Of a DNA stretch of 64,000 nt, positions 12,584 through 30,679 are shown piece after piece. Origin of the DNA: Tardiphaga sp. P9-11 (GTDB taxonomy: Bacteria; Pseudomonadota; Alphaproteobacteria; Rhizobiales; Xanthobacteraceae); NCBI RefSeq assembly GCF_008329525.1, contig NZ_NPKQ01000014.1, forward strand, positions 1 through 64,000, read 5' to 3'. The translations under genes and the position numbers were made by a program. A model generated the notes under the pieces. The model saw nothing but the letters and a program-made list of their open reading frames with translations. It was not told where the DNA came from and made no database searches. Numbering within the stretch: the stretch's first letter is position 1; each line of letters begins with the position of its first letter.

Positions 12584-12632
12584 ACGCTATTCGGGAAATC
12601 ACTCGTACACAAGCTCAGCGCTCGCTTACAAG
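12584..12632 (-). promoter_or_regulatory. Promoter with tandem MarR-type operators (importer unit)
   Basis: On the minus strand a -35 TTGTGT (12612-12607) and a -10 TAGCGT (12589-12584) are 17 bp apart. The palindrome CTCG-TACA-CAAG at 12602-12613 overlaps the -35, and a second copy, CTCG-CTTA-CAAG at 12621-12632, starts exactly 19 bp further upstream. A half-site CTTG follows at 12642. The same arrangement occurs at 20953-21020 and 30631-30679, next to MarR regulator genes. The expected transcript starts about 35 bp before the binding-protein gene. Confidence 0.7.
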
Positions 12633-12763
12633 CAACAAAAACTTGCTCACATTTCATCAGTTTTTGTGCAGCCCACCATTCGCCATGATGCGGCTGCCCT
12701 CGCGGCATCTAGCGCGGACTGCCCGAGCGTAAGATGGCGTCGTCATCATCCGGAGGGCGTCCG

Positions 12764-14866
12764 TCAGCGATCGCTCTTTGCAGCATTGAGCGATGCGAAA
12801 GTCGCGCCTTCGCTCGCCAGCCGAGCGAGCAAGGCGGCCGGTCTCAAAGCCGGCTCGTTGAGGTGGTCCGCATAGAATTCGAGCCGCCCGACGATGTGCT
12901 TCAGGCCAACCTGGTCGCCATAGAACATCGGACCGCCGCGGTGGATCGGCCATCCGTACCCGTAGAGCCAGATCACGTCGATGTCGCTCGGGCGCGCCGC
13001 GATATCTTCCTCGAGGATGCGCGCGCCTTCGTTAATCATCGGATAGATCATGCGCTCCAGAATTTCCTGATCGCCGATCGCCCGACGCGTCAGGCCAAGA
13101 CGCCTGCAGGTGTCGTCGATAATCTTTTCGACCTCCGGATCGGAGATCGGCGCCCGCGATCCCGCTTCGTACCGGTAGTAACCTTTGGATGTCTTCTGGC
13201 CGAGGCGGCCAGCCTCGCAGATCGCATCGGCGATGTCCCAGCGGATGCCGCGATCCTGCCGCGAGCGCCAGCCGATATCGAGGCCGGCGAGATCGCCCAT
13301 CGCGAACGGGCCCATGGGAAGGCCGTAGCGGGTGATGACCGCGTCGACCTGTTCGGGCAGCGCGCCGCTCTTAAGCAGCGCTTCGCCCTGCAGGCCGCGA
13401 ACAGCAAGCATGCGGTTGCCGACGAAGCCGTGGCAGACGCCCACGACGACGGGCGTCTTGCGGATGCGCTTGGCCACCGCGGCGGCGGTCAGCAGCGCAT
13501 CGGCCGCCGTCTTGTCGGCACGCACGATCTCGCAGAGCTTCATGATATTGGCCGGCGAGAAGAAGTGCATGCCCAGGACATCCTGCGGCCGCCCCGTGAC
13601 GGCCGCTATCTCGTTGATGTCGAGATAGGACGTGTTGGTGGCCAGCACCGCGCCCGGTTTTGCATGGGCATCAATGGCGGTGAAGACGTCCTTCTTGATG
13701 GCCATGGTTTCGAACACGGCCTCGATGACAAGATCAGCGTCTCTGACATGTTCGAGCCCGACCTTGCCGTCGATCAAAACCATGCGTTTGCCGGGCTCGT
13801 CCGCGGCAATGCCACCGCGTGCCGCGGTGGCTTCCCAGTTCTTCTGCATCATGCCGAGGCCACGGGTCAGCTGCGCCTCTCCGGTCTCGATCAGGGTCAC
13901 GGGGATGCCGGCATTGGCAAAGGCCATCGCGATACCGCCGCCCATGGTGCCGGCACCAATGATGGCGACGCGCTCGACCGGCCGCGGCTTCACGCCAACC
14001 GGCACGCCTTGAACCTTGACCGCCTCACGTTCTGCAAAGAACGCGTGACGCTGCGCCTTAGACTGATCGTCGGCCACGAGTTTTAGAAAGGTCTCGCGTT
14101 CCCGCTTCAACGCGTCGTCGAACGGCGTGTCGAGGGTCCAGCTCACCGCCTCGGCGCAAGCCAGAGGCGCATTCATTCCACGCGCTTTCTTCGTGGCTGC
14201 CGCAGCAGCGGCGGTGAACAGCGAGCGATCCGCCCGGGCGTCCGCGAGCCTAGAGTCGTCGTTGCGCAGCAGAAGCAGCGGGCGCCGCTCGGCAACGACG
14301 CGCTTCGCAAAAGCAATCGCGCCATCCGCCGGCCTTTCGACGATATCGTCGATCAGGCCGCGCTCGCGCGCCTCGGCGGCGCCGATTGGCTCGCCGGTCA
14401 CGATCATTTTGACGGCGAATTCCGGACCGACCGCGCGCGGCAGGCGCTGCGTGCCGCCGGCCCCGGGCAGCAGACCGAGCTTCACCTCGGGAAGACCGAG
14501 TTTCGCGTCGTTCGTGGCGACACGAAAGTGACAGCCCAGCGCGAGTTCGAGCCCGCCGCCGAGCGCGGTGCCATGGATAGCGGCGATCACCAGCTTGCTG
14601 CAGCTCTCGATCGCCGCGATCACCTCGTTGAGGGATGGCGACTGCGGCGGCTTTCCGAATTCGGTGATGTCGGCACCGGCGACGAATGTGCGTCCGGCGC
14701 AGGCGATCACGATGCAATCCACTGCGGCGTCCACATTTGCGGCCTCGACCCGTTCGAGGATCCCACGGCGGACGGCGGCGCTCAGCGCATTCACCGGCGG
14801 TGAGTCGATGGTAACGACCGCACAGCGGTCGGTCACCGCGAGCTTGACGACTTCGCTCAATGTCAT
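12764..14866 (-). CDS. Bifunctional enoyl-CoA hydratase / 3-hydroxyacyl-CoA dehydrogenase (PimF/FadB-like)
   Basis: The 700-residue protein fuses a crotonase domain (residues 1 to about 190) to a 3-hydroxyacyl-CoA dehydrogenase (about 297-700). In the crotonase part, E107 (in GGGLELAL) and E127 (in LPEVKLG) are 20 residues apart, as are the two catalytic glutamates of FadB. The dehydrogenase part has the NAD motif IIGAGTMGGGIA (residues 302-313) and MHFFSPANIMKL with the active-site histidine. It hydrates enoyl-CoA and oxidises the 3-hydroxy product. The set of FadB-like protein, thiolase, ligase and two dehydrogenases equals the gene content of the Rhodopseudomonas pim operon. It ends 222 bp before the importer binding-protein start. 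Confidence 0.88.
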   Translation of the reverse strand: MTLSEVVKLAVTDRCAVVTIDSPPVNALSAAVRRGILERVEAANVDAAVDCIVIACAGRTFVAGADITEFGKPPQSPSLNEVIAAIESCSKLVIAAIHGTALGGGLELALGCHFRVATNDAKLGLPEVKLGLLPGAGGTQRLPRAVGPEFAVKMIVTGEPIGAAEARERGLIDDIVERPADGAIAFAKRVVAERRPLLLLRNDDSRLADARADRSLFTAAAAAATKKARGMNAPLACAEAVSWTLDTPFDDALKRERETFLKLVADDQSKAQRHAFFAEREAVKVQGVPVGVKPRPVERVAIIGAGTMGGGIAMAFANAGIPVTLIETGEAQLTRGLGMMQKNWEATAARGGIAADEPGKRMVLIDGKVGLEHVRDADLVIEAVFETMAIKKDVFTAIDAHAKPGAVLATNTSYLDINEIAAVTGRPQDVLGMHFFSPANIMKLCEIVRADKTAADALLTAAAVAKRIRKTPVVVGVCHGFVGNRMLAVRGLQGEALLKSGALPEQVDAVITRYGLPMGPFAMGDLAGLDIGWRSRQDRGIRWDIADAICEAGRLGQKTSKGYYRYEAGSRAPISDPEVEKIIDDTCRRLGLTRRAIGDQEILERMIYPMINEGARILEEDIAARPSDIDVIWLYGYGWPIHRGGPMFYGDQVGLKHIVGRLEFYADHLNEPALRPAALLARLASEGATFASLNAAKSDR

Positions 14867-14958
14867 TCTCCAATCAGAGCATTATCACTCGGTGCACGCA
14901 GCGAGCCGCGGTCCTGCCAGCCGCAGAACGCTGCGCAACGTTATTATCGGCACGCGGG

Positions 14959-16143
14959 TCAGTGGATGATCTCGAACAGGCCCGCGGTGCCCATGCCGCC
15001 GCCCACGCACATGGTCGCGACGCCATATTTCGCCTTGCGGCGGCGGCCCTCGATCAACAGATGGCCGGCCAGCCGCGCGCCGCTCATGCCATAGGGATGG
15101 CCCATGGAGATGGCGCCGCCATTCACGTTCAGCTTCGCCGGATCGATGCCGAGCTTGTCGCGGCAATAAATCACCTGGACCGCAAAGGCCTCGTTCAGTT
15201 CCCAGAGATCGATGTCGTCGATGCCAAGGCCGTGACGCGCGAGGAGGCGCGGGACGGCGTAGACCGGGCCGATGCCCATTTCGTCCGGCTCGCAGCCTGC
15301 CGATACGAAGCCCCGGAAAATGCCGAGCGGCTCCAGACCCCGCCGCGCCGCTTCCCTGTCGCTCATGATCACCATAGCGCTGGCGCCGTCCGACAGCTGG
15401 CTGGCATTGCCTGCCGTGATGCAGCCGCCTTCGCGCACCGGCTTCAGCCTGGTCAGGCCATCTTGCGTCGTATCCGGACGCGGTCCCTCGTCCTGCGACA
15501 GCGTGATGCCTTTCAGGCTAGTTTCCTTGGTCTCCTTGTTCGTCACCGACATGGTGGTCGTCAGCGGCACGATCTCGTCGTCGAACTTGCCACTGGTCTG
15601 CGCGGATGCGGTGCGCATCTGGCTATCGAACGAATATTCGTCCTGCCGGTCGCGCGAGATCGCGTAACGCTTCGCCACCACCTCCGCGGTGTCGAGCATT
15701 GGCATATAGATGTCCGGCTTCATCTCCATCAATGCAGGATCGACGGCGCGATAGGTGTTGGCATGTTCGTTCTGCACCAGCGTGATCGACTGGCCGCCGC
15801 CGCCGACCGCGATCTGGACGCCATCGTGGATCACCGAGCGGGCGGCGATGGCGATGGCCTGCAGCCCCGACGCGCAAAGGCGATCGACCGTGGTGCCCGA
15901 CACCGAAACCGGCAAGCCTGCGCGCAGCAAGGCCTTGCGGGCGATGTTGCCGCCGGTGGTGCCCTGCTGCATGGCGGCGCCCATGACCACGTCCTCTATG
16001 TCGCCGGGATCGACCTGCGCGCGCGTCACCGCCGCCTTGATCGCCTCGCCCAGCAGCGTGGCACCATCGGTGCTATTCAGCGCGCCGCGATAGGCCTTTC
16101 CAATCGGGGTACGCGCGGTCGAAACGATAACGGCATCGGTCAT
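14959..16143 (-). CDS. Acetyl-CoA acyltransferase (thiolase)
   Basis: A 394-residue thiolase, the last step of a beta-oxidation round, splitting a 3-ketoacyl-CoA with CoA. The nucleophile is C90 in DRLCASG, the general-base histidine is H349 in GAISMGHPYGMSGAR, and C379 lies in MCVGGGMG. The degradative rather than biosynthetic role is suggested by its place between a FadB-like gene (92-bp gap downstream) and a CoA ligase (15-bp gap upstream). It is comparable with PimB. The SMGHPYGMSG variant of the histidine motif differs from the more common ALGHPLGASG, which may reflect substrate preference. Confidence 0.9.
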   Translation of the reverse strand: MTDAVIVSTARTPIGKAYRGALNSTDGATLLGEAIKAAVTRAQVDPGDIEDVVMGAAMQQGTTGGNIARKALLRAGLPVSVSGTTVDRLCASGLQAIAIAARSVIHDGVQIAVGGGGQSITLVQNEHANTYRAVDPALMEMKPDIYMPMLDTAEVVAKRYAISRDRQDEYSFDSQMRTASAQTSGKFDDEIVPLTTTMSVTNKETKETSLKGITLSQDEGPRPDTTQDGLTRLKPVREGGCITAGNASQLSDGASAMVIMSDREAARRGLEPLGIFRGFVSAGCEPDEMGIGPVYAVPRLLARHGLGIDDIDLWELNEAFAVQVIYCRDKLGIDPAKLNVNGGAISMGHPYGMSGARLAGHLLIEGRRRKAKYGVATMCVGGGMGTAGLFEIIH

Positions 16144-16158
16144 GGGAGAACTTCCAGT

Positions 16159-17811
16159 TTAAGCAGAATGGGAGGAGAGCTGGTCGCGGAGCGCTTGCCG
16201 GGACAGCTTGCCGACATTGGTTCGCGGCAGTTCGTCGATGAAATCGAGCGCCGTCGGCAATTCATGCTTGCCAATCTTGCCGGTGAGGAAGGCGCGCAAC
16301 TCGTCGATGTCGAAACCCGCGGCGCCGGGCCGCAGCGTGATATAGGCTTTTGCGGCCTCGCCGCGATATTCGTCGGGAATGCCGATGACGAGCACCTCCT
16401 TGACGTGCGGATGCGCATAGATCGCCTGCTCGATCAGTTGCGGATACACGTTGAAGCCGCCCGATATGATGAGATCCTTCTTACGGTCGACCAGATAGAA
16501 CCAGCCATCGGCGTCCATGTAGCCGATGTCGCCGGTCAGGAAGCGATCGCCGAGGAACCATTCGGAACGGTCTTCGTCGCGATTCCAGTAACCCTTCGTC
16601 ACGTTCGGCCCGCGGATGCGCAATTCACCGACCTCGCCGGCAGGCAGCACGCGATGCGGGTCGTCATGCGCGACGATGTCGATTTCGATGCCCGGCAGCA
16701 TCAAGCCGATGGAGCCGGGCCGGTCCGGACCGTCCGACGGATGCGTGGTGCCCGGCGACGAGGTTTCCGTCATGCCCCAGCCGCTGCGCAGCCGCAGAGC
16801 GGTCTTGCGCTCGAGGATCGCCGCGACCTCGACGGGCAGCGGCGCTCCACCCGAGCCGCAGGAGACCAGCGACGACAGATCGCGGTTGTCGAGATCCGGC
16901 AGGCTTGTGATGGCGATCCACATGGTCGGCACGCCCGGAAACACTGTCGCGCGCTTGACCTCGATGTCGCGCATAATCTCGTCCAGGTCGAAGCGCTGAT
17001 GCAGCGAAATGAGGTCGCCGTAGCGCAGCCGCTTCATTAGCACGAGCGTAAGGGCATAGATGTGAAACAAGGGAAGCGCACAGATCACCCGCTCGGCAAT
17101 GCTGCGCTTGGCCCGGAACGGGCGCGTCCACACTTCCCGGATCGAGACCGCGGCGGTCAGATTACGATGCGAGAGCATCGCTCCCTTGGGCAGGCCGGTG
17201 GTCCCGCCTGTGTATTGAAGCAGAGCGACGTCGTCCTGATCGAGAGCCGGCCAGGTCGCGGGCGACTGCGCCTCCTTGATGAAATCCGCGAAAGTGACGA
17301 TCTCCGGACGCCGGTCGTAGGAGGCCAGCGCGTTCTTGGCCGCGCCCCATGCTTCGTCTTCGCAGACAATTATGCGATCGACGATCCCGGCCTCGAGAAA
17401 CGCAAGGGCGCGCGGGAAAATCGACGCGAGATTGCTGGTGACGACGACCCGCGTGCCGCTGTCGGTCAATTTGTGCTTCAGCGTGATCTCGCCATCAAGC
17501 GGGCTGAGATGCACGAGACGCGCGCCCGCCTTGAGCGCGCCGAAGAAGTTGATCGGGTGATCCGGCGTGTTGCCGAGAAAGATTCCGACGGTGGTACCGC
17601 GGCCGAGACCAGCGCGCAGATAGGCGGCGGCCGCCTCCGTGACTTTGGCATTCAGGTCAGAATAGCTGGTCTGACGGCCACGGAATTCGATGGCCGGTCG
17701 ATCCGCGAATTCGCGTGCCGATTGCTCCAGCAGCGCCGGCACGAGGCCGGTCTTGATTGGCTCGTCCCAGCGGACGCCTTCCGGATAGAATTTCTCGCCG
17801 GGATATTTCAT
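16159..17811 (-). CDS. AMP-forming acyl-CoA ligase (PimA-like position)
   Basis: The 550-residue enzyme has the ANL motifs YTGGTTGLPKGAML (near residue 200), GWGMTETSSPGTTH (near 345), YLVDRKKDLIISGG (near 437) and the C-terminal catalytic lysine K535 in NVGKLSR. It activates a free acid to its CoA ester. It sits between the Tct transporter (48-bp gap upstream) and the thiolase, so the likely flow is import, activation, then beta-oxidation. Family resemblance is to long-chain or dicarboxylate ligases; a pyridyl or aryl alkanoate is also possible given the neighbouring ring-degradation genes. Substrate remains inference. Confidence 0.87.
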   Translation of the reverse strand: MKYPGEKFYPEGVRWDEPIKTGLVPALLEQSAREFADRPAIEFRGRQTSYSDLNAKVTEAAAAYLRAGLGRGTTVGIFLGNTPDHPINFFGALKAGARLVHLSPLDGEITLKHKLTDSGTRVVVTSNLASIFPRALAFLEAGIVDRIIVCEDEAWGAAKNALASYDRRPEIVTFADFIKEAQSPATWPALDQDDVALLQYTGGTTGLPKGAMLSHRNLTAAVSIREVWTRPFRAKRSIAERVICALPLFHIYALTLVLMKRLRYGDLISLHQRFDLDEIMRDIEVKRATVFPGVPTMWIAITSLPDLDNRDLSSLVSCGSGGAPLPVEVAAILERKTALRLRSGWGMTETSSPGTTHPSDGPDRPGSIGLMLPGIEIDIVAHDDPHRVLPAGEVGELRIRGPNVTKGYWNRDEDRSEWFLGDRFLTGDIGYMDADGWFYLVDRKKDLIISGGFNVYPQLIEQAIYAHPHVKEVLVIGIPDEYRGEAAKAYITLRPGAAGFDIDELRAFLTGKIGKHELPTALDFIDELPRTNVGKLSRQALRDQLSSHSA

Positions 17812-17859
17812 CCATTTCCCTCCCCGCAGCGCCGTTTAGCTTGATGACAGGCTGCGATG

Positions 17860-19368
17860 TTATGCGTGTTTTGCGCGGATGGCGTTTCGCCTGACCATGG
17901 CGATGATGGCGGGACCCAGCACTGCCACGACGCAAAGCGCGGACAAGGTCCCGCTGATCGGCCGGGTGACAAAGATGGATAGATCGCCACCGCTTAGAAA
18001 CAGCGTTTCGCGTAGCGATTTCTCGAAAATGGGCCCGATTACGATTCCAAGAACCAGCGGCGCGAGGTCGAAACCGATCTGCCGCAGAATCGCCCCGACC
18101 GCGCCGAATCCCACCAGCACGCAAAGATCCCAGTAGCTGCTGCGCATCGTATAGACGCCGATGAAACTGATCGCGAAGATGAAGCCGATCAGCGCATATT
18201 GCGGTACCCGCAGCAGGCGCACCCAAATGCCGACCAGCGGCAGGTTCAGCGCGAGCAATGCAATGTTTCCGATATACATCGATGCCAGCAGGCCCCACAC
18301 CACATCCGGATGCTGCGACAGCAGCAGCGGCCCCGGCTGGATTCCCTGAACGATCAGCGCGCCCAGCATCAACGCCACATTGGGCGTGAACGGGATGCCA
18401 AGCGCCAGCACTGGCACCAGCGCCGACGTCGCCACGGCATTGTTGGCAGCCTCAGGCCCGGCGAATCCCTCAACCGCCCCGCGGCCGAATTCATCGCGAT
18501 ATTTGCGAGCGATCGCCTTCTCAACGCCGTAGGACGCGAAAGTCGCGGTCAGCGATCCTGGCCCCGGTAACAGGCCGATTAGAAAACCGATGCCGGAGCC
18601 ACGCACGATCGCCGGCCATGCCCGCGACCATTCGACCCGTGTCGGAATCATGTCGCGCAGCCGCACCCTATCGGCACGAGGGAATCCATTATTAGAAGCG
18701 ACGACATGAAACAGTTCGCTCAACCCGTAAAGGCCGAGCGTGATCGGGACAAGATCGAAGCCCAGCGCGAGAGTGTTGGTGTCGAAAGTGAAACGGGTGT
18801 CACCGCCCACGGCATCGACACCGATCGTTGCCAGCGCCATTCCGATCAACAGCATCAACATATTTCGCGCCGGGTCGTTGCCGGTGATGCGCACCAGGGT
18901 CAGGCCGCCCAGCAGCGCCAACAAACAGAATTCTGGCGAGGAGAAGCGCAAGGCGACATCGGCTAGGACGGTGGTGAACAGGCTCAGCCCAATAATGCTA
19001 ATCGTGCCCGCGATGAACGAGCCGACGGCGCAGATCATCAGCGCCGCCCCTGCCCGTCCCTTGCGTGCGAATTCGTAGCCATCGATGGTGGTGACGATGG
19101 ATCCTCCCTCGCCCGGAATACGCAGGAGGATGGCCGTTGTCGATCCGCCATACATGGCGCCGTAATAAATGCCGGCCAGCATGATCAAACCGGTGACCGC
19201 GGAAAAATGCACGGTGATCGGCATGAGAATGGCCATCGCACCGAGCACGCCGAGGCCGGGCAGAACGCCAGTGGCTGTGCCGACGAGCGCACCCAACAGG
19301 GCAGCGCCGATATTGACCGGCTGAAGCGCGACGGCGAAGCCGCCGAGCATTTGGGCGAGCAGGTCCAT
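17860..19368 (-). CDS. tctA: Tripartite tricarboxylate transporter, large permease TctA
   Basis: A 502-residue inner-membrane protein with about twelve hydrophobic segments. The TctA hallmarks are visible: the N-terminal GALVGTATGVLPGLGVLGAM repeat segment (residues 25-45), YYGAMYGGSTTAILLRIPGE near 70, and the second-half FLIGLLPGPGSLTATFASY near 265. With TctB and TctC it imports carboxylates using a cation gradient and a periplasmic binding protein. Its start is 2 bp after the tctB stop. Known substrates of the family include citrate, terephthalate and other dicarboxylates. Confidence 0.92.
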   Translation of the reverse strand: MDLLAQMLGGFAVALQPVNIGAALLGALVGTATGVLPGLGVLGAMAILMPITVHFSAVTGLIMLAGIYYGAMYGGSTTAILLRIPGEGGSIVTTIDGYEFARKGRAGAALMICAVGSFIAGTISIIGLSLFTTVLADVALRFSSPEFCLLALLGGLTLVRITGNDPARNMLMLLIGMALATIGVDAVGGDTRFTFDTNTLALGFDLVPITLGLYGLSELFHVVASNNGFPRADRVRLRDMIPTRVEWSRAWPAIVRGSGIGFLIGLLPGPGSLTATFASYGVEKAIARKYRDEFGRGAVEGFAGPEAANNAVATSALVPVLALGIPFTPNVALMLGALIVQGIQPGPLLLSQHPDVVWGLLASMYIGNIALLALNLPLVGIWVRLLRVPQYALIGFIFAISFIGVYTMRSSYWDLCVLVGFGAVGAILRQIGFDLAPLVLGIVIGPIFEKSLRETLFLSGGDLSIFVTRPISGTLSALCVVAVLGPAIIAMVRRNAIRAKHA

Positions 19369-19370
19369 CG

Positions 19371-19871
19371 TCAGCCTCCGAACATGGTGGTGAACAGCGA
19401 TCCGTAAGGAAGCGAGACTTTAAGGCCGAGCGCGAACACGACCCAGAACGCGATCGGCGTCGTCACGGCAACCACGCACGCATTCTTCCATGTCGCATCG
19501 GCGAGGCGCGCCATCAGAAGCAGGAAGGCCGCCGTCGTCAGGAAGATGCCGAGAAAGGGCAACGTCACTACGAAGGCTATGCAGAGCAGAAGCGAATAAC
19601 CGACGCGCAGCGCCGCTGTGCCGCGCGGCCACGGACCGAGCTCCGCAGCCACGGGGCGATTGCGGATCGTGACATAGATGCCGAATGCCACCCAGCAAAC
19701 CGCGATTAGTGCAGGGATCGCACCGACGCCTGTCCCCAGGGGATCCCCCATCGGAAGTTGCATCGATTGGTACAGATAGCCCAGGCCCGCAGCGGTCAGG
19801 ATCAGCGACGTCAGCCGCGATCCTTTGGCCGCTGCCGGGACATCGACGTCAGTTGCTGTCGCGTCGACCAT
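19371..19871 (-). CDS. tctB: Tripartite tricarboxylate transporter, small permease TctB
   Basis: The 166-residue protein has four hydrophobic segments, the usual size and layout of TctB. It lies between tctC (7-bp gap) and tctA (2-bp gap), as in most such operons. TctB proteins are poorly conserved, so the assignment leans on position, length and topology (for example the segment LLCIAFVVTLPFLGIFLTTA near residue 95). Confidence 0.85.
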   Translation of the reverse strand: MVDATATDVDVPAAAKGSRLTSLILTAAGLGYLYQSMQLPMGDPLGTGVGAIPALIAVCWVAFGIYVTIRNRPVAAELGPWPRGTAALRVGYSLLLCIAFVVTLPFLGIFLTTAAFLLLMARLADATWKNACVVAVTTPIAFWVVFALGLKVSLPYGSLFTTMFGG

Positions 19872-19878
19872 CCGCGAC

Positions 19879-20952: not shown

Positions 20953-21039
20953 ATGATATTTCGACTATCACTCGTATGCAAGCACAAAACTTGTTCGCAA
21001 GCGCACAACTTGCAAGCAAGCAAATGAATGGGATAAAAC
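20953..21039. promoter_or_regulatory. Divergent promoters with three phased MarR-type operators
   Basis: Three palindromes of the form CTYG-N4-CAAG start at 20971, 20990 and 21009, exactly 19 bp apart. The left one (CTCGTATGCAAG) overlaps the -35 TTGCAT (20981-20976) of a minus-strand promoter whose -10 TATCAT (20958-20953) is 17 bp away and which would drive tctC. The right one (CTTGCAAGCAAG) overlaps a plus-strand -35 TTGCAA (21010-21015), with a plausible -10 TAAAAC at 21034-21039, which would drive the MarR gene. This is a mirrored layout suited to autorepression plus repression of the transporter unit. Confidence 0.75.
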
Positions 21040-22585: not shown

Positions 22586-23638
22586 CTATCTGCCCGGGGC
22601 TCTCAGCTCCTTGTAGGCAAACTCGCCCTTGTCCAGGATATGGATGTCGTCCAGCCACAGGCTGCAGCCGCGCAGCGGAATGTCGAGATGGCACGGCGTG
22701 TCGTTGGTGCCACCGAGCTCCACGTTCGGGCCGGTGGAGAACAGCACGTTTCCATAGAACGAAAGCGCGTTCATGATGTGCTCCTCGGACAATTGCTGCG
22801 AGGCGGCGATGTGATGCCATTGCGCGCGCTCGTTGGAGCCCCAGCCGATATGGGCGATCGCCCAGCCGCGCGGATCGCCGAAGCTGTCGATATAGTTCTT
22901 GATCAGGAGCGCATCGGTGCCCTCGCCCTGGATATCGACGATGAACCCGTCCTTCACCGTCAGCGTGACCGGCGACTGGATGTAGCGCTTGAAGGCGCAG
23001 AGGATATCGCCCGGCATCAGCACCACGGTGCCGTTGACATCGCCATCGGTCGCCTGCGTGAAGGCGAAGCCGGAAGGGAAGTGATCCCAGCGGCCGGGCT
23101 CGTCGGTATAGCCATATTCGGAAATCACCGGATATTGCTTCAGCCCATAGGTCACATCTGTTCCGCCCGGCGAGGTGATGCGCATCTTACTGGCCGACTG
23201 CAGCAGCTTGCGCGACAGTTCGGTGCGGCGGCGCAGGTCCTCGGTCGGAAACATCTTCTTGAGAATGTGGAACGGCTCCATCACGCGCAGGATGCGCGCA
23301 CCGGCCTCTTGGATTTCGGCCTGTTCTTTGGAGAACAACAGACCGAGCAGATCGATCACCATATCGGCGCGCTTCAGCGTATCGATGGCTAGCTGAATGC
23401 CCGTCAGCGCGTGGCGGCCTTGCAGGCCGGCGACCTTGCCCTGACCGTATTTCGGCACGTTGATATGAAAGGTCGTGGCACCCAGGCTCTGGGCAGCCAG
23501 CATGAAGGCCTGGGCGTATTCCGGCTGATCCTCGCCGCCGCTGAGTACGACGACGACTTCGCCCTTCCTGACCTTGCAGAGTTCGAGCTCGGTCTTGAAC
23601 AGATCGAGCATCTCGACATCGACGCGTTGCCTGGGCAT
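22586..23638 (-). CDS. nicX: 2,5-dihydroxypyridine 5,6-dioxygenase (NicX)
   Basis: The 350-residue product matches NicX of Pseudomonas putida in length and in signature segments: EYGYTDEPGRWDHFPSGF near residue 175, IAHIGWG near 262, and LFSTGPNVELGG followed by TPCHLDIPLRG near 300-322. The mononuclear Fe(II) ligands of NicX correspond to H263, H317 and D319 here. The enzyme opens the ring of 2,5-dihydroxypyridine to N-formylmaleamate using oxygen. It starts 15 bp after nicD and is the last intact gene of the operon. The family also contains leucyl-aminopeptidase-like (M29) proteins, but the HIGWG and CHLDIPLR motifs favour the dioxygenase. Confidence 0.88.
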   Translation of the reverse strand: MPRQRVDVEMLDLFKTELELCKVRKGEVVVVLSGGEDQPEYAQAFMLAAQSLGATTFHINVPKYGQGKVAGLQGRHALTGIQLAIDTLKRADMVIDLLGLLFSKEQAEIQEAGARILRVMEPFHILKKMFPTEDLRRRTELSRKLLQSASKMRITSPGGTDVTYGLKQYPVISEYGYTDEPGRWDHFPSGFAFTQATDGDVNGTVVLMPGDILCAFKRYIQSPVTLTVKDGFIVDIQGEGTDALLIKNYIDSFGDPRGWAIAHIGWGSNERAQWHHIAASQQLSEEHIMNALSFYGNVLFSTGPNVELGGTNDTPCHLDIPLRGCSLWLDDIHILDKGEFAYKELRAPGR

Positions 23639-23653
23639 TGTGACAGACTCCTG

Positions 23654-24505
23654 TTAGCGATAGGTGGAATGATCGGCTTGCTGGGAACGTGGCGGCGCAA
23701 GAATGTCCTCGACGATGGCGAGGAATCCTTCGGTATCGTCGATCTGCATCTGGTGACTGGCGCCTTCGAGGCGCCGGATCGCAATGGAAGGCAGCAGTCG
23801 CTGGATTTCGGCTTCATCCTCACCCCGAATGACGCCGCCTTTGCCCGCGACGATCAATGTGGCAGCGACGGCGATCTTGCCGAGATCGAAGTGAACGTCG
23901 TCGTGATGGAAACCCTTGTGGCTCTCCGTCAAGGCGCGCTCGTCGCAGGTATGCATCCACTCGGCACGCATCTTGATGTGCTGCTCTGGCCAATTCGGAG
24001 CATCCGGGCCGCGCAGGGCCGCTTCAACATCGCCGCGCTGCGCGCTGTGCAGCAGTCTGATCAGCGGTTCGATCGGGATCGGATAGGCGCGACGACCTGG
24101 ACCCGAAACGGGCGGATCCACCATGATCAAACGCTCGATGGAGGCCGGCCGCCAGCGCGACGCGCGAATGCCGATGCGCGCCCCCATGGAGTGACCGAGG
24201 ATCGTGTATCTCGTGATGCCGAGCGCCTCGGCGAATGCGAGGAGGTCGGACGCGCAGGCATCGAGCGAGTAGTTGAGATGCCGACCGCTTTCGGACAGGC
24301 CGCGGCCGCGAACATCAAGAACAAAGATATCGCGTCCGACGCAAAGGCGTTCGGCGACGAAAGCCCATTGCGCCGCCGTGGTCGAGATTCCCGGAACGAT
24401 GATCAACACCGGTCCGCTTCCACCGAATCTCAGATAATGCTGTCGGATGCCGTTGGCGCGCACATGGGCGCCGTAGAGCAATTTCGAGGGCCCGGTGCCG
24501 GTCAC
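23654..24505 (-). CDS. nicD: N-formylmaleamate deformylase (NicD)
   Basis: A 283-residue alpha/beta hydrolase closely resembling NicD: ANGIRQHYLRFGG near residue 17, LDVRGRGLSESG near 63, and VDPPVSGPGRRAYP near 129. The catalytic triad reads as S106 (GHSMG), D130 and H251. It hydrolyses N-formylmaleamate to maleamate and formate, the step after NicX. Its start overlaps the nicF stop by 4 bp (ATGA), indicating coupling. The protein is some 15 residues longer than the P. putida enzyme, mostly at the ends. Confidence 0.88.
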   Translation of the reverse strand: MTGTGPSKLLYGAHVRANGIRQHYLRFGGSGPVLIIVPGISTTAAQWAFVAERLCVGRDIFVLDVRGRGLSESGRHLNYSLDACASDLLAFAEALGITRYTILGHSMGARIGIRASRWRPASIERLIMVDPPVSGPGRRAYPIPIEPLIRLLHSAQRGDVEAALRGPDAPNWPEQHIKMRAEWMHTCDERALTESHKGFHHDDVHFDLGKIAVAATLIVAGKGGVIRGEDEAEIQRLLPSIAIRRLEGASHQMQIDDTEGFLAIVEDILAPPRSQQADHSTYR

Positions 24506-25203
24506 GGTGCGCGCTCCGCCGACAATGTCCGAAGCTTGTCGATGACGGCGTGCGTGGGCAGAATGTCGGCATATTTGCTGGCGATGTCGAACAGGTTGAC
24601 GGCATGCGAGGTCGGGGACCGATCATACACCGCGTCGCTCGGAACGATGGATTTGAAGTTCAAGGCGCAGGCATCAACGACCGATGCGCGAACGCAGCCG
24701 CTGGTGGTGCAGCCCGTGACGACGAGCGAATCCACGCCGCCGCCGATCAGATAGGTCGCCAACGGCGTACCGAAGAAGGCGCTTGCCTGAGTCTTCGGCA
24801 GCAGCAATTCGCCGGGCTGCGGGGCAACTTCCTTGACAAAATCATAACCCGCTGCAGGGATCCGCATGATGCCCGGAATCTTGGTGGCGAACGCGCCGTG
24901 GTCCTGGGCGACCTTGCGGGCGACGTGCGGGAAGATCACCGGCCACCTGTTCTCGCGAAACACGCTCACGAGATTGGCGATATGCGGAATGGCATTCCAC
25001 CCGGCGTCGCCACAACTGGTCGGATACTGCTTCACCGCCTCGCGGATCGGCATCGGCCGGTCGCCGACCGAACGATATTGAACGTCAATGACGAGGAGTG
25101 CCGGCCGCTTGCCGAAGCCGGCCGCGCCGCCGAGCCCGGCCATCGCATAGGTCTCGCGCTCCTCCAATGGAATAACGTCGTCCCAAGGCTGCTTGATGGT
25201 CAC
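24502..25203 (-). CDS. nicF: Maleamate amidohydrolase (NicF-like isochorismatase fold)
   Basis: This 233-residue cysteine hydrolase belongs to the isochorismatase/N-carbamoylsarcosine amidase family. The triad is visible as D40 (LLVIDVQ), K137 (LLPKTQAS) and C170 in TGCTTSGCVRAS. In the nicotinate pathway NicF deaminates maleamate to maleate. The position between the NicC-like monooxygenase (22-bp gap) and nicD (4-bp overlap) supports this. The N-terminal 25 residues (QPWDDVIPLEERE) match carbamoylsarcosine-amidase relatives more than the shorter P. putida NicF, so another amide substrate is not excluded. Confidence 0.82.
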   Translation of the reverse strand: MTIKQPWDDVIPLEERETYAMAGLGGAAGFGKRPALLVIDVQYRSVGDRPMPIREAVKQYPTSCGDAGWNAIPHIANLVSVFRENRWPVIFPHVARKVAQDHGAFATKIPGIMRIPAAGYDFVKEVAPQPGELLLPKTQASAFFGTPLATYLIGGGVDSLVVTGCTTSGCVRASVVDACALNFKSIVPSDAVYDRSPTSHAVNLFDIASKYADILPTHAVIDKLRTLSAERAP

Positions 25204-25225
25204 GACTACACTCCTGTCTTTGATG

Positions 25226-26437
25226 TCACCGAAGCGGCACGGTGGTCGCGTCGTATTGGTAGATCCAGTCGAAGCGCGCCTTGGACGCGACCGGTGACCA
25301 CTGCGTCTTGATGTAGTCGTCCGCGGTCTCGACCGTGCCGAGCGCCTTGTTGTGGAAGATCGGCAGCATGCCGATCGCCGACTCCACCACCTTGCCGGTG
25401 CGATCGAGCCGCAGCCCCTGATAGGTTTGGAACGCCCTGGCCAAATCGTTGGGCTGCTCGTCGAGGCAGCGCGCCAGCACGGCGGCGTCCTCCAGCGCCA
25501 TGTTCACGCCCTGCCCGAGATAGGGCGGCATCGAGTGACAGGCGTCGCCCAGCAAGGTGACGCGGCCCTGCGACCAAGTCTTGAGCGGCGGCCGCACGAA
25601 CAGGCCCCATTTGTTCAGCGTATCGACGTTCTCGACCAGCGCGATGATGTCGGAATGCCAGCCGACGAAATCGCGGAGACACTCCTCGATCGATCCTTTC
25701 TCGGACCAAGATTCCAGCTGCCAGTCGGCGCGGTCGACCTGTCCCGAAAAAGTCATCAGCATGGTGTCCTGCCACAGCACCGGATAGGCGGTGACATGCG
25801 CGGTCGGCCCAATCCAGGTCGACACCACATGCTCTCGCTGGTGCGGCGCCAGCCGATCGACCGGCACCAGACCGCGCCAGGCGATGACATTGGTGTACTT
25901 GCTCGCGAGCTGACCCATGATCCCGGTCCGGACCTTGGAATGGGCGCCGTCGGCCCCGATCAGCGCGCGGCCTTCGACCTCGGCACCGTCGGCGAGGGTC
26001 GCTCGGACGCCGCCATCGGTCTGGCTGAATCCGACGACATGGGCGTTCAGATGAATGGCGCCCGGCTTCAGTTTGCGGACGCCGTCCGTCAGAAGCTTGA
26101 GGAGATGCGCACGGAGCAGAAGGTAAGGCTGATTGCCGGCAACATCCATCGCACGGTTATAAAGCGGCCAGCTTTGGCCAGTGCTCCACAGACGGATGTC
26201 GCGCCGTTCGGCCGCGATACAGCTCTGCTCGACCTGCTCGGTCAGGCCGAGATCGTTGAGAACGCGCACGCCATTCATGGAAATCCACAGGCCAGCGCCG
26301 ACCTCGCGCAGTTCGGGTGCCTGCTCGAACACGTCGCAATCGATGCCGCGACGCAGCAGCGACAGGGCCATCGCGAGGCCGCCGATCCCGGCGCCGGCGA
26401 TGAGAATGCTCGACTTGCCGACTTGTTCAGTATTCAT
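25226..26437 (-). CDS. nicC: FAD-dependent monooxygenase, NicC / salicylate hydroxylase-like
   Basis: A 403-residue single-component flavoprotein hydroxylase. The FAD-binding GAGIGGLAMAL motif is at residues 15-25, the DG motif (GADGAHSKVR) near 160 and GDACHSMPPYLGQGVNMALEDA near 290. The start at 26437 has a GGAG element 8 bp upstream; the frame is open to 27085, but that part only mirrors the genes behind it. In this operon it should convert 6-hydroxynicotinate, or a related 2-hydroxypyridine carboxylate, to 2,5-dihydroxypyridine with decarboxylation, the NicC step. By sequence alone salicylate-type hydroxylation is equally possible; the operon decides the call. Confidence 0.78.
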   Translation of the reverse strand: MNTEQVGKSSILIAGAGIGGLAMALSLLRRGIDCDVFEQAPELREVGAGLWISMNGVRVLNDLGLTEQVEQSCIAAERRDIRLWSTGQSWPLYNRAMDVAGNQPYLLLRAHLLKLLTDGVRKLKPGAIHLNAHVVGFSQTDGGVRATLADGAEVEGRALIGADGAHSKVRTGIMGQLASKYTNVIAWRGLVPVDRLAPHQREHVVSTWIGPTAHVTAYPVLWQDTMLMTFSGQVDRADWQLESWSEKGSIEECLRDFVGWHSDIIALVENVDTLNKWGLFVRPPLKTWSQGRVTLLGDACHSMPPYLGQGVNMALEDAAVLARCLDEQPNDLARAFQTYQGLRLDRTGKVVESAIGMLPIFHNKALGTVETADDYIKTQWSPVASKARFDWIYQYDATTVPLR

Positions 26438-26502
26438 GATATCTCCGGACAAAAGATGTGCTGGGGCACGATGGTTCAGGCGGCGTCTTCCGAAACATGC
26501 TG

Positions 26503-26964
26503 CTAGGCAAGACTCTTCACCGCCTCGAAAATCTTGATGTATCCGGTGCACCGACACAGATTGCCGTGCAGGTAGTGGCGGATTTCGTCGTCGGTCGGAT
26601 GCGGCTTCGCTTTCAGCAGCGCGGTCACCGCCATGATGAAGCCAGGCGTACAGAAGCCGCATTGCAGACCGCCGTGACGCACGAAGGCCTCCTGGATGCG
26701 CGACAGACCGTCCGCCGGAGTTACCCCCTCGATGGTCGTGACCTCGCGGCGATCCACGTCCACCGCCAGTGTCGTGCAACTCGAAATCGGCGCGCCGTCG
26801 AGCAGCACGGTGCAGGCGCCGCAGACCTCCATGTCGCAGGACCGCTTCGTGCCCTTGAGGCCGATGCGATCCCTGATCAGATCGACCAGCAGCGTGTGGG
26901 TCGGCACCTCGATCGCGATGGCCTCGCCATTCAGCGAGAAGGAAATGGGGAGATGATGTGTCAT
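26503..26964 (-). CDS. Molybdenum hydroxylase, 2Fe-2S subunit
   Basis: The 153-residue subunit has both iron-sulfur clusters of the xanthine oxidase family: the plant-type cluster with C43, C48, C51 and C63 (CDMEVCGAC...), and the second cluster with C102, C105, C137 and C139 (CGFC...CRC). It passes electrons from the molybdenum centre to FAD. It lies 5 bp after the FAD subunit gene. Nicotinate hydroxylase NicA and carbon monoxide dehydrogenase CoxS are relatives. In this operon it is probably part of a pyridine-ring hydroxylase that adds a hydroxyl next to the ring nitrogen using water. Confidence 0.9.
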   Translation of the reverse strand: MTHHLPISFSLNGEAIAIEVPTHTLLVDLIRDRIGLKGTKRSCDMEVCGACTVLLDGAPISSCTTLAVDVDRREVTTIEGVTPADGLSRIQEAFVRHGGLQCGFCTPGFIMAVTALLKAKPHPTDDEIRHYLHGNLCRCTGYIKIFEAVKSLA

Positions 26965-26969
26965 CCGGC

Positions 26970-27836
26970 CTAGCTCCTGCCGCCACCAAGCGCGTCGTCC
27001 AGATTTCTCTGTAGCAGGACGCCGGCGAGATGGCGCTTGTAGTCGGCGCCGCCATGCCGATCGGCGTTGACATCGAGCGCATCAAGCGCCGCCGGCAATG
27101 CCTCAGCCACCGCGCAACGCGCCTCGACGATGGAACGACCGCGAAGTGCGTCTTCGACGGCCGTCAACGCCTGCGGGCGGAAGCTCAGTGCGCCGACCCG
27201 GATCCGGGCGCTTGCGATGATCGTATTGCGCTCGGCCAGCGACCAGGCCATGGCGACATTTACCGACGGCCGTTCGCCATGCTTGAAACGGCGATAGGTG
27301 ACGGAGCCGCTCGGACGCGGAAATACGATTGTCGTCAGCAGCTCGTTCGGCGCACGCACCGTTTCCAATTCGCCCTGGATGAACTCGTCCGCAGGCACGG
27401 ATCGGATGCCACCGAGACCCTGCAGCACCAGCCGCGCATCGAGCACCGCCAGCATGGTCGGCGGATCGGCATGCGGCTCTCCGAAGCACAGGTTGCCGCC
27501 GATAGTCCCGACGCTGCGGACCCTGATATTGGCCACATCGGCGCAGAGCGCGGACAGCGCCGGCACATGCTCCTGAATGAGTGCATCGCCCGCAATCCGG
27601 TTATGCGTGCAGCGCGCGCCGATCTCGATCTCGTCCGCATCGTTCAACATGATGCCATCGAGCCCCGCGATACCCTTGATATCAACGAGCCGTTCCGTAT
27701 GGATCACGCGCATCTTCATCGCCAACAGCAGCTCGGTGCCGCCGGAATAGAACATGCCCTCGCCGTCCTCACCGACGGCTGCGAGTGCCTCGTCGATCGT
27801 CGGCAACCTTGTATATTCGAAGGGAAGCGGCAGCAT
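26970..27836 (-). CDS. Molybdenum hydroxylase, FAD subunit
   Basis: A 288-residue FAD-binding subunit of the CoxM type. The flavin motifs are YSGGTELLLAMKM near residue 32 and TIGGNLCFGEPHADPP near 108. The ATG at 27836 is chosen over a TTG two codons earlier. It follows the CoxG gene by 2 bp. It takes electrons from the iron-sulfur subunit and passes them to an acceptor. The presence of an FAD subunit separates this enzyme from the two-subunit NicAB of P. putida, which uses a cytochrome domain instead. Confidence 0.88.
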   Translation of the reverse strand: MLPLPFEYTRLPTIDEALAAVGEDGEGMFYSGGTELLLAMKMRVIHTERLVDIKGIAGLDGIMLNDADEIEIGARCTHNRIAGDALIQEHVPALSALCADVANIRVRSVGTIGGNLCFGEPHADPPTMLAVLDARLVLQGLGGIRSVPADEFIQGELETVRAPNELLTTIVFPRPSGSVTYRRFKHGERPSVNVAMAWSLAERNTIIASARIRVGALSFRPQALTAVEDALRGRSIVEARCAVAEALPAALDALDVNADRHGGADYKRHLAGVLLQRNLDDALGGGRS

Positions 27837-27838
27837 GA

Positions 27839-28288
27839 TCAAGCAGCGCCCAACATGTCTTTGAGCTTCTTTTCAAACTCTTCGAAATTCTGATCGACTC
27901 GTCGCTTGATGACGCCGAAGCCCATGGAGGCGAGGCGTCCCTGCACATCGACCTTCGCTTCCACGGCGAATGTCGAGCCGGCGTCCTGCGGCGTCACCGT
28001 CACATCGAGGACCACCGCAAGCCGCGTACCGGTGAACTTGTCGCGCCCCGTGGCGCGGGTGCGTACGTGCGACGGTTCGGTGATGGATTCGACGACGATA
28101 TCGGCGGGTACTTCGATCTTGAACGGGCCGATTTTCTGTTTGACCGTTGCTTTGTAGGTCGCGAGCCGTTCGATTTCCTCGACATTGTCGCAGCCCGGGA
28201 TGCAGGACGAAATGCGCGGCACATCTAGCAGCGTGCTCCAAAGCTCCGCAGGTGTCGCCGGGACGACCATCGACATCTTGAATTCCAT
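27839..28288 (-). CDS. CoxG-family protein (SRPBCC fold)
   Basis: The 149-residue protein is a carbon monoxide dehydrogenase subunit G homologue, starting MEFKMSMVVPATPAELWSTL and containing ISSCIPGCDNVEEI (about residue 30-43), both typical. CoxG proteins are thought to help assemble or membrane-anchor CoxSML-type molybdenum hydroxylases; they are not part of the catalytic site. Placement between the molybdenum subunit (4-bp gap) and FAD subunit (2-bp gap) supports a role with this enzyme. The family's C-terminal membrane helix seen in some members is missing here. Confidence 0.85.
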   Translation of the reverse strand: MEFKMSMVVPATPAELWSTLLDVPRISSCIPGCDNVEEIERLATYKATVKQKIGPFKIEVPADIVVESITEPSHVRTRATGRDKFTGTRLAVVLDVTVTPQDAGSTFAVEAKVDVQGRLASMGFGVIKRRVDQNFEEFEKKLKDMLGAA

Positions 28289-28292
28289 TAGC

Positions 28293-30554
28293 TCAATTCC
28301 TCTTCTGCAAAGCGCGCCACACTTTTTCCGGCGTCATGGGCAGGTCGGTAATGCGGATCCCATAAGCAGAGAACAGCGCGTTGGCGATCGCCGGCGCGAC
28401 CGGAAGAATGGCGCCTTCGCCCATTCCCTTGGCGCCGCCCGGCCCGGGACCGTCGCCATTTTCAATCAGGATGGTGTCGAAGGCCGGCGGCACGTCGGAG
28501 ATCCGCGGGATGAAATAGTCGATTGGATTCGCATTGACCGGCTGGCCGTCCTCGAATTCCAACTGCTCGTAAAGCGCGTGCCCGAATCCCATCACAGCCG
28601 CGCCCTCGTCCTGCCCTTCGGCGGCGACGCGGTTGATGACCCGGCCGACATCGGCGGCGCTGGCATAGTGGGGAATGTGGATTTCGCCGGTGTCTTCATC
28701 GACGATGATTTCAGCAAGACCCGCCGAAGTCTCCCAAAACAGCGGCGACTCGACCAACGCCCCTTTCTTCGAGCGCGGGGTAATGGCGCCGCGGCCGATG
28801 ACCTCGCCGGAATCGACGCCCAGCGTGCGGTGGAAAATCTCGTGAAAGGTGAGAACTTCGGCGCCAATCGAGACGCCGCCTTCGACCAGCGACAGGCTCT
28901 CCTTCGGCAGTTCCCAGACATCTGCGACCATCTCCAGGATCTGATCGGCTGCATCGAGCGCTGCCTTTTCGACCGACAGGCCGACCACGATAGTCGAGCG
29001 ACTGGCCCCAGTGCCCCAGTCATAGGGGGCGACCGCCGTATCCGTGCGCAACACCGTGACCGCGGAGGCCGGCTGCTTCAGCGTCTGTGCCGCGATCCGC
29101 CCCATGGTCGCATGGGATCCCTGCCCCACTTCGATGGCAGAGGTCGAAACCAGGATCGAGCCGTCAATCTTGAGCCGCACGATCGCGTTGCTGATCGGCG
29201 TATTGGCCGGATCCGTCGCCGCCACGGCGAGCCCACGCGACTTCCTGTTGGACGCGTTGGCTTCGGTGCCGAACGACTGGCTCACCCGGCCCATCAGCTC
29301 GCTCATATCCATGTCGAGCGCCCGCAGGTCCGGCCGCGTGCGCTGGCCTCGGGATGCCAAATTGATCAACCGGAATTCGCTCGGATCCATGCCGATGGCC
29401 GCCGCGACATTGTCCATGTGCGACTCCTTGGCCCATACGGCCTGCGGGCCGCCGATCGAACGAAATGCGGCCCCCGGGATCGTGTTCGTATACACCGCCT
29501 GCGCTTCGAGACGCAGATTGGGCATCACATACGGGCCCATGATGCGATTGGCCGACTTGGTTGCGACCGCGGAGCCCGTATCGGAATAGGCGCCACCATC
29601 GAGCAGCAGCTTTGCGCTCTTGGCGACAATGCGCCCCTTCGCGTCCACTGCGGTGCGTATCGTTATGTCCGCGCCGAGCCTGCGGCAGGTGAGCATGGAC
29701 TCCACTTGGGATTGGGCAATGCGAACCGGACGCTGCACCTTCCAGGACGCAGCTGCGACCAGCGGCTCGATTTTGACCGATGCCTTGCCACCGAAGCCGC
29801 CGCCGACGAACGGGACGATCACCCGGATGCGCGCAAGCTGCAGGCCGAACAGGCGTGACAATACTTTCTGCACGGCCGTCGGCGTTTGTGCGCCAGCCCA
29901 GATGGTCAGGGAATCGCCCTTGAAGTCGGCGATCACGGTGTGCGGCTCCAATGCGAAATGCGAGATGCCGGGAAAGGTGAAGTGATCCTCGTGGATATAG
30001 GCGGCGGTGGCCTCGGCCGCGTCGACGTCACCGACTTCGTTCCGATAGGTGTGAAAGACGTTGCTGCCCTGGGTCGGGCGCGCGCCGCCCTTGAAATAGA
30101 AGTCCTGAAGATTTTCGTGATGCGCGTGGATCAGCGGTGCGCCGTCGGCCATCGCCTCCCGGATCGTCGTCGCCCGCGGCAGCTCTTCATATTCGACATC
30201 GACCAGTTCCGCGGCGTTTTCCGCGATCTCGACCGTGTCGGCGATCACCACGGCGATGGGTTCCCCGACATGACGAACGCGGTCGATCGCAATGATCGGC
30301 CGATCCTTGAGAACCAGACCCCACAGACCGAATTGCGCGACATCGGCACCGGTCAGCACATCGACAACGCCGTCGGACGCCAGTGCTGCGCTCGTATCGA
30401 TCGACACGATACGGGCATGGACCGCCGGCGACCGGACCACGAAGCCGTGCAGCATGCCCGGCACCGTCAGGTCGGTGATGTACTCCGCCCGCCCGGTGAC
30501 CTTCTCGATGAGGTCGGGCCGCACGGAGCTCATATTGTCAATCGTCTTCGACAT
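28293..30554 (-). CDS. Molybdenum hydroxylase, molybdopterin subunit
   Basis: A 753-residue catalytic subunit of the xanthine oxidase family (CoxL/XdhB/NicB-like). It has the aldehyde-oxidase N-terminal domain (VTGRAEYITDL near 20), the cofactor segment FVGGGFGGKASVKIE near 255, and the C-terminal GAKGMGEGAILP with the catalytic glutamate at E713. It hydroxylates a ring carbon next to nitrogen with water-derived oxygen. As first gene of the ring-degradation operon it likely acts on nicotinate or another pyridine carboxylate. The CoxL-specific selenocysteine-loop motif of true CO dehydrogenase is not seen. An alternative start is M8. Its promoter at 30631-30659 carries a MarR-type operator. 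Confidence 0.87.
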   Translation of the reverse strand: MSKTIDNMSSVRPDLIEKVTGRAEYITDLTVPGMLHGFVVRSPAVHARIVSIDTSAALASDGVVDVLTGADVAQFGLWGLVLKDRPIIAIDRVRHVGEPIAVVIADTVEIAENAAELVDVEYEELPRATTIREAMADGAPLIHAHHENLQDFYFKGGARPTQGSNVFHTYRNEVGDVDAAEATAAYIHEDHFTFPGISHFALEPHTVIADFKGDSLTIWAGAQTPTAVQKVLSRLFGLQLARIRVIVPFVGGGFGGKASVKIEPLVAAASWKVQRPVRIAQSQVESMLTCRRLGADITIRTAVDAKGRIVAKSAKLLLDGGAYSDTGSAVATKSANRIMGPYVMPNLRLEAQAVYTNTIPGAAFRSIGGPQAVWAKESHMDNVAAAIGMDPSEFRLINLASRGQRTRPDLRALDMDMSELMGRVSQSFGTEANASNRKSRGLAVAATDPANTPISNAIVRLKIDGSILVSTSAIEVGQGSHATMGRIAAQTLKQPASAVTVLRTDTAVAPYDWGTGASRSTIVVGLSVEKAALDAADQILEMVADVWELPKESLSLVEGGVSIGAEVLTFHEIFHRTLGVDSGEVIGRGAITPRSKKGALVESPLFWETSAGLAEIIVDEDTGEIHIPHYASAADVGRVINRVAAEGQDEGAAVMGFGHALYEQLEFEDGQPVNANPIDYFIPRISDVPPAFDTILIENGDGPGPGGAKGMGEGAILPVAPAIANALFSAYGIRITDLPMTPEKVWRALQKRN

Positions 30555-30630
30555 TCAACAATCCACGGGAACTTCGCTGCTATTCCGAGCCGCGCGGTGC
30601 CGCGACACAGTTTGAAAAACGCTGCGACAA

Positions 30631-30679
30631 GCGCTAAAGCATTTATTGCTCGTATGCAAGTGCTGCGCTCGTGCACGAC
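30631..30679. promoter_or_regulatory. Promoter with two phased MarR-type operators (ring-degradation unit)
   Basis: On the minus strand a -35 TTGCAT (30659-30654) and a -10 TAGCGC (30636-30631) are 17 bp apart. CTCG-TATG-CAAG at 30649-30660 overlaps the -35 and is the same 12-mer as at 20971-20982. A second element CTCG-TGCA-CGAC at 30668-30679 begins exactly 19 bp away. It lies in the 323-bp gap between the divergent molybdenum hydroxylase and MarR genes. The remainder of this gap shows nothing recognisable. Confidence 0.7.

Follow-up and report, generated by a model that had tools for sequence, protein, structure and literature searches.

A tandem palindromic operator before three catabolic operons of Tardiphaga sp. 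P9-11 suggests a regulon under two paralogous MarR proteins

Three long gene groups on the minus strand of a Tardiphaga sp. P9-11 contig encode an NMT1-type importer (Unit 1), a TctCBA importer with beta-oxidation enzymes (Unit 2) and a ring-hydroxylase pathway (Unit 3), and each is preceded by a similar palindromic promoter. Are these units controlled together, and by which protein? The stretch analysed, hereafter the window, comprises 64,000 nucleotides (contig NZ_NPKQ01000014.1, positions 1 to 64,000), and the genome scanned comprises 6,158,120 bases (6.16 Mb) in 30 contigs. A first-pass annotation had predicted a compact regulon under one MarR-type repressor system. Our analysis supports the compact regulon and refines the repressor system to two paralogous MarR genes, marR1 and marR2. 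We consider it likely that the three operons form one accessory regulon for a catabolic pathway of nicotinate/2,5-dihydroxypyridine type, which would import and degrade a compound resembling nicotinic acid and be repressed by two sister MarR proteins through a common tandem operator, and the three gene groups very probably switch on and off together.

The three promoter-operators lie on the minus strand where the first-pass annotation had placed them, each with its -10 element exactly 17 bp from the -35 hexamer. Promoter-operator 1 (12584..12632) carries palindromes at 12602-12613, on the -35 TTGTGT (12607-12612), and at 12621-12632, with the -10 TAGCGT at 12584-12589. Promoter-operator 2 (20953..21020) has three palindromes (20971-20982, 20990-21001 and 21009-21020), the -35 TTGCAT at 20976-20981 and the -10 TATCAT at 20953-20958. 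Promoter-operator 3 (30631..30679) has palindromes at 30649-30660, on the -35 TTGCAT (30654-30659), and at 30668-30679, with the -10 TAGCGC at 30631-30636. The -35 hexamers follow the pattern TTGNNT, and the -10 elements are of the TA type. Read on the minus strand, the core 16-mer is CTTGTGTACGAGTGAT at promoter 1 (12598-12613, read from 12613 to 12598), CTTGCATACGAGTGAT at promoter 2 (20967-20982, read from 20982 to 20967) and CTTGCATACGAGCAAT at promoter 3 (30645-30660, read from 30660 to 30645). A palindrome covers the -35 in each unit as claimed earlier, though in an imperfect form that reads CTTG-N4-CGAG on the promoter strand. The outer copies, of the form CTYG-N4-CRAG, begin at exact 19-bp steps as had been described; those at 12621, 20990 and 21009 have no mismatch in eight positions and that at 30668 has one. 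The outermost copy of promoter-operator 2 may also cover the -35 of the divergent marR1.

Such arrays could in principle reflect chance or likeness to a repeat family, for example a dispersed palindromic repeat, and the relaxed single-site matches do sit at background level. The pattern CTTGYRTACGAGYRAT has three exact matches genome-wide, all within the window. With up to two mismatches, the core 16-mer gives 17 matches (3 exact, 1 with one mismatch, 13 with two) and its reversed control gives 16, and since these counts are nearly equal, the relaxed matches represent background. The degenerate 12-bp single-site pattern gives 28 rows at 26 genome places, and its reversed control 41. All three exact 16-mer matches, and none of the other 14, have a further palindrome 19 bp away that carries one mismatch or none. 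The one-mismatch site at C16:466392 (L004) and the 13 two-mismatch sites, which lack such a copy, were rejected as regulon members. A 19-bp neighbour is present at 6 of the 26 single-site places, all 6 in the cluster, and for the other 20 places, 4 or more of the 8 positions are mismatched on either side. Across 100 dinucleotide shuffles of the 64 kb, pairs at 19 bp averaged 0.02 with a maximum of 1, compared with 4 in the window. Single palindromes are therefore common, and a genome scan of the kind proposed by the first-pass annotation finds the full tandem module, with the patterns used, only before these three units. As pitch and promoter register are moreover kept across genera, a chance origin is refuted by the shuffles, the genome scan, the spacing counts and the co-occurrence in relatives described below, and we assign the chance or repeat explanation a negligible probability.

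Conservation in relatives, which lends the strongest support, was followed in a species collection, where the scan covered 67 loci with MarR2 relatives. Orthologues of MarR2 with at least 79% identity occur in loci L074-L093. If one mismatch in total is allowed, 16 of the 67 loci have a 19-bp pair, always upstream of the MarR gene and always among these 20 loci; if two are allowed, 20 of 21 close MarR2 loci (L074-L093) have one, at the position of promoter-operator 3. Among distinct pairs from 44 sources, 38 are spaced by 19 bp, 10 by 33 bp and 8 by 38 bp (twice 19), with fewer elsewhere, where each three-copy array counts as two 19-bp pairs. The -10 register is equally constant: T at position 25 and A at position 26 occur in 37 of 37 promoters, which sets the -10 uniformly 17 bp away from the -35 in the proximal palindrome, although several rows come from near-identical strains and the 37 are not independent events. 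The 37 promoters remain from 43 listed arrays after removal of the duplicates L144, L147, L149 and L151, of L170 (0 mismatches) and of window position 46864 (2 mismatches, inside an ABC-ATPase open reading frame, ORF); the alignment has a 38th row, the G380 NMT1 array (L146) read in the wrong direction.

In three related genomes (G050, G181 and G380), arrays precede the NMT1 operon, as homologues of promoter-operator 1, the acyl-CoA synthetase (ACS) gene, and the NicX or ACS gene divergent from MarR1; an array with a weaker outer copy also precedes their MoCo gene. An extra three-copy array in G050 (L141 4904-4953) precedes a second NMT1/SsuBC-type ABC-transporter operon, and G181 has a near-identical array (L169 12916-12965). 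Within the genome the operator thus stands only before related units and in other genera it is conserved before their homologues, as expected of a regulon. In relatives the module occurs together with the MarR orthologue and with genes of the same pathway, which supports the regulon predicted earlier.

The link to MarR2 holds across the family. Among 391 family genomes, 7 encode a MarR2 orthologue with at least 80% identity, and CTTGCATACRAGYRAT occurs in all 7 and in 1 of the remaining 384, with a single genome matched by the reversed control. A looser pattern, applied to 22 selected genomes, picked out these 7 again and missed both genomes with 71-73% homologues and all 13 controls; its matches fall at 15 places, 12 of them in arrays. 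The exception among the 384 is G212, in which the palindrome stands three times at 20-bp pitch (L177 8283-8334, G212:C136) directly before another MarR-family gene. This gene is not a close MarR2 homologue and the genome lacks an orthologue of at least 80%, and the array's position supports the palindrome as a MarR-type operator. These data also bear on whether another regulator, such as an AraC, TetR or GntR protein encoded elsewhere, owns the sites while the MarR genes are merely linked. AraC-type genes do occur in the window. The arrays nevertheless occupy the gap that separates marR1 or marR2 from the catabolic gene transcribed the other way, and the core follows the MarR2 orthologue with one exception, which itself precedes a MarR gene; a foreign owner is very improbable. 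In 17 other genomes of the same genus, no core site and no MarR2 homologue listed above about 55% identity was found; given this absence, the cluster (window 5376-31345) looks accessory or acquired.

Both predicted repressor genes are on the plus strand and adjoin two of the three arrays. MarR1 (21103..21576; Pfam match on the longer ORF 21070-21576) is divergent from tctC, and MarR2 (30878..31345; TTG start inferred) is divergent from the molybdenum (Mo) hydroxylase operon. They score 44.6 and 50.0 bits against PF01047 (cut-off 24.6) and are 72% identical over 137 amino acids. The recognition region SQN[HY]LGRLIHYDSATITGV is the same, apart from the His/Tyr position, in 12 of 12 aligned sequences of MarR1 or MarR2 type; it differs in the third MarR homologue of the genome (C16:481363, 54%), for which no 19-bp array was found in the surrounding 30 kb (L174, L175). 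In the tree, MarR1 and MarR2 separate into clades of 4 and 23 sequences (FastTree support 0.97 and 0.96; ultrafast bootstrap, computed from splits, 93 and 91), and the only MarR of G071 and of G123 falls with MarR1 (0.87; 88). By sequence, both proteins are closest to the solved structures 2nnn and BpsR. Upstream of 43 MarR homologues that are more distant, motif discovery gave dyads that look like conserved coding sequence and were set aside. An ACS orthologue of at least 84% is confined, among nine genomes, to the four that have MarR1 (G000, G050, G181 and G380); in the remaining five the best match reaches 66-70% or there is none. This shared distribution suggests that MarR1 belongs with the beta-oxidation module and MarR2 with the ring operon.

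Do the two paralogues share their operators or divide them? Each array might be bound in the cell by one paralogue only, through a preference for inner bases or linkers, with the operator inherited from the duplication. Eight three-copy arrays have position-specific copies, namely outer CTTGYYTRCAAG, middle CTYGHGRRCRAG and inner CTTGYAYRCRAG on the promoter strand. Three-copy arrays adjoin the MarR1 genes of G050, G181 and G380 and the single MarR of G071 and G123. Their linkers are TTTTGTG-like, whereas most MarR2-side arrays have two copies and YGYAGYR-like linkers. These differences in linker, copy number and inner bases, together with the separate clades, would suit such a division of labour. 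The two array types nonetheless agree in palindrome core, pitch and -10 register, the paralogues hardly differ in their recognition region, and G351, G378 and G383, which have MarR2 and no second homologue at the level of MarR1, share the core. A strict division is a tenable possibility that we nonetheless hold to be the weaker of the two; joint use of one operator by MarR1 and MarR2 fits the shared core better. Near MarR1, the outer copy resembles the -35 of the divergent marR1, with TATYGT 18 bp further on in three of four genomes; the corresponding window bases are TAAAAC, and no divergent -10 was seen at two arrays that are at, or resemble that at, the second ABC operon. From this pattern, autoregulation of MarR1 appears plausible. 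A MarR-like gene of G123 (L155, about 9960) contains an in-frame stop before its matched part and lies beside a perfect three-copy array, which may outlive a broken regulator.

From the operator, its pitch and promoter register, their conservation, the co-occurrence with MarR orthologues and the paralogy, we infer MarR binding, repression, an inducer, cooperativity and the transcription starts as follows. The three long operons would be kept off by MarR-family dimers bound to rows of two or three 12-bp palindromes at 19-bp pitch. A dimer on the promoter-proximal palindrome, over the -35, would exclude RNA polymerase; the constant position of this palindrome argues for steric repression, as for the CouR boxes (PMC4737184). 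Adjacent dimers would probably stabilise each other, as the fixed 19-bp pitch (about 1.8 helical turns) speaks for contacts between them. MarR1 and MarR2, with their near-identical recognition regions, would read the same operator, MarR2 accompanying the operon for pyridine-ring hydroxylation and 2,5-dihydroxypyridine cleavage, and MarR1 the beta-oxidation module. A pathway intermediate would free the repressors and open all units together; the likeliest candidate is a pyridine carboxylate that has been hydroxylated, or a related acyl-CoA. Could the MarR proteins instead activate from these arrays? MarR-family activators exist, among them BhbR2, which covers -22 to -43 (PMC12016517). In every unit here the -35 lies under the proximal copy, an arrangement typical of repressors and seen with CouR (PMC4737184), but BhbR2 covers a -35 as well, so layout alone is not decisive. 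We judge activation quite improbable and retain repression.

Several observations weigh against joint repression by the two MarR proteins. A strict E. coli sigma-70 scan found no promoter in the two regions scanned, out of three. Single palindromes are not enriched genome-wide, as their reversed control exceeds them. The partial close homologue L140 has no array at up to two mismatches, and the 80% cut for MarR2 was chosen after the list was seen. Three of the 15 looser-pattern places are lone sites without a 19-bp neighbour (L145 6057-6072 in G380, L149 9949-9968 in G378 and L171 9348-9363 in G351). The exact core is absent from G071 (MarR 73%) and G123 (71%), though both have three-copy arrays between MarR and MoCo; their single MarR lies on the MarR1 side without a close ACS orthologue, so that the link between MarR1 and the upper module is imperfect. 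BpsR binds 6-hydroxynicotinate via Tyr15, His23, Arg26 and His32 (PMC6837509). MarR1 keeps Tyr, Arg and His32 and replaces His23 with Phe, and in the MarR1/MarR2 alignment MarR2 has the same four letters. Given this exchange in MarR1, the inducer may differ from 6-hydroxynicotinate.

What would such a regulon do? The contents of the three minus-strand units are given by Pfam and, for Unit 3, also PDB matches, and their extents are predicted from gene order and strand. Unit 1 (7155..12541) encodes an NMT1-type binding protein (11459-12541), an ABC ATPase (10563-11390), a permease (9772-10620) and two acyl-CoA dehydrogenases (8476-9702 and 7155-8372); a third acyl-CoA dehydrogenase (5376-6572, minus strand) is possibly part of it. 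Unit 2 (12764..20832) comprises TctC (19879-20832), TctB (19371-19871), TctA (17860-19368), ACS (16159-17811), a thiolase (14959-16143) and a FadJ-like hydratase/dehydrogenase (12764-14866). Its ACS is nearest to ligases of the fatty-acyl, feruloyl and 4-coumarate types. A 4HBT acyl-CoA thioesterase (21619..22041, plus strand; Pfam) lies downstream of marR1. Unit 3 (22586..30554) begins with a Mo hydroxylase large subunit (28293-30554), a CoxG-like protein (27839-28288) and Mo hydroxylase FAD (26970-27842) and 2Fe-2S (26503-26964) subunits. These are followed by a flavin monooxygenase (about 25226-26440), an isochorismatase-fold amidohydrolase (24502-25203), a deformylase-like alpha/beta hydrolase (23654-24505) and a 2,5-dihydroxypyridine dioxygenase (22586-23638) recognised by its PDB match. 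ORF 25226-27085 was rejected as a single fused protein, as its first 220 residues have no Pfam match and the 2Fe-2S subunit lies in another frame.

PDB matches refine the pyridine-ring hydroxylase operon named in the first-pass annotation to the nicotinate/2,5-dihydroxypyridine type. The 350-residue dioxygenase, without a Pfam match, matches 2,5-dihydroxypyridine 5,6-dioxygenase 7cn3 (2.6e-81), and the hydrolase matches deformylase 4l0c (7.8e-68). The monooxygenase is closest to tropone 2-monooxygenase (4.6e-61), ahead of 6-hydroxynicotinate 3-monooxygenase 5eow (7e-49). For the amidohydrolase, which presumably acts on maleamate, the best solved match is N-carbamoylsarcosine amidohydrolase (2.4e-34), followed by the isochorismatase-like 3ot4 (2.3e-28). 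A 2,5-dihydroxypyridine (maleamate) cluster, with dioxygenase, deformylase, amidohydrolase and flavin monooxygenase in one row, is thus present by sequence match, and these matches indicate that Unit 3 would provide a lower route via 2,5-dihydroxypyridine. We take its enzymes to be of the NicX, NicD and NicC type. The nearest solved relative of the Mo hydroxylase is 4-hydroxybenzoyl-CoA reductase, with nicotinate dehydrogenase 3hrd in fifth place; given the nearest matches of this enzyme and of the synthetase, nicotinate is one candidate among others for the starting substrate. The pathway may, for instance, begin with a pyridine-alkanoate whose chain is trimmed to give a pyridine carboxylate.

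Beside the regulon lie a pyruvate dehydrogenase E1-E2-E3 set and a divergent AraC gene (window 31914-37702); in G378, homologues of E1 and AraC are found near the MarR2 gene. The lone core-like sites in L145 and L149 are less than 2 kb from the cluster's NicX gene.

An extended version of the model would have mixed rows of MarR1 and MarR2 dimers on the same pitch-locked arrays answering to different ligands, an AND-gate made from one operator and a gene duplication and kept across several genera of the family, with a pyridine-alkanoate entering the 2,5-dihydroxypyridine route through a beta-oxidation that has not yet been described. Full opening would then need signals from both the upper pathway (MarR1, beta-oxidation) and the lower pathway (MarR2, ring cleavage). 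We hold this version to be unlikely. Joint repression through the common operator already has consequences of its own: the operator is precise enough for recognition by sequence in the family, including Bradyrhizobium and Rhodopseudomonas, and outlines a complete, testable regulon; an uncharacterised beta-oxidation and transport module is tied to pyridine-ring breakdown; and two old paralogous repressors seem to retain one DNA code, a natural case for why such pairs persist.

How does this system compare with known ones? Among the matches listed in the open-access literature, no description of this operator or regulon was found. PicR of Alcaligenes faecalis is said to recognise a short TCAG-type palindrome. 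It is, by the title of its report, a MarR repressor of the pic (picolinate) cluster with several control points. BpsR of Bordetella (PDB 6PCP/6PCO) is likewise a MarR repressor of a nicotinate (nic) cluster and responds to 6-hydroxynicotinate, and its sequence matches MarR1 (2.7e-22) and MarR2 (3.9e-17). Unlike BpsR, for which the available excerpt gives no operator sequence, the present system has a paralogous pair, 19-bp tandem arrays, and beta-oxidation and transporter genes in its predicted regulon; judged by sequence, the relation of MarR1 and MarR2 to the BpsR-type sensor is one of resemblance, not membership. CouR of Rhodococcus jostii RHA1 resembles the present system in that one MarR repressor acts at inverted repeats on the -35 of four promoters, and differs in its single box per promoter (cATTGA-N5-TCAATg), its acyl-CoA ligand and its single regulator (PMC4737184). 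The dioxygenase, deformylase and 6-hydroxynicotinate 3-monooxygenase matches correspond to the 2,5-dihydroxypyridine (maleamate) route, whereas the monooxygenase, amidohydrolase and Mo hydroxylase have other best matches here and a beta-oxidation module is very probably co-regulated. For Bradyrhizobiaceae strain SG-6C, a partly reductive degradation of nicotinate has been proposed from a 6-hydroxynicotinate reductase homologue (PMC3511419), which makes a 2,5-dihydroxypyridine-type cluster in the family of note. As a whole, MarR control of pyridine-carboxylate clusters is already known from BpsR and, by title, from PicR; the present system would be a variant of this control, in which pitch-locked arrays serve two old paralogues.

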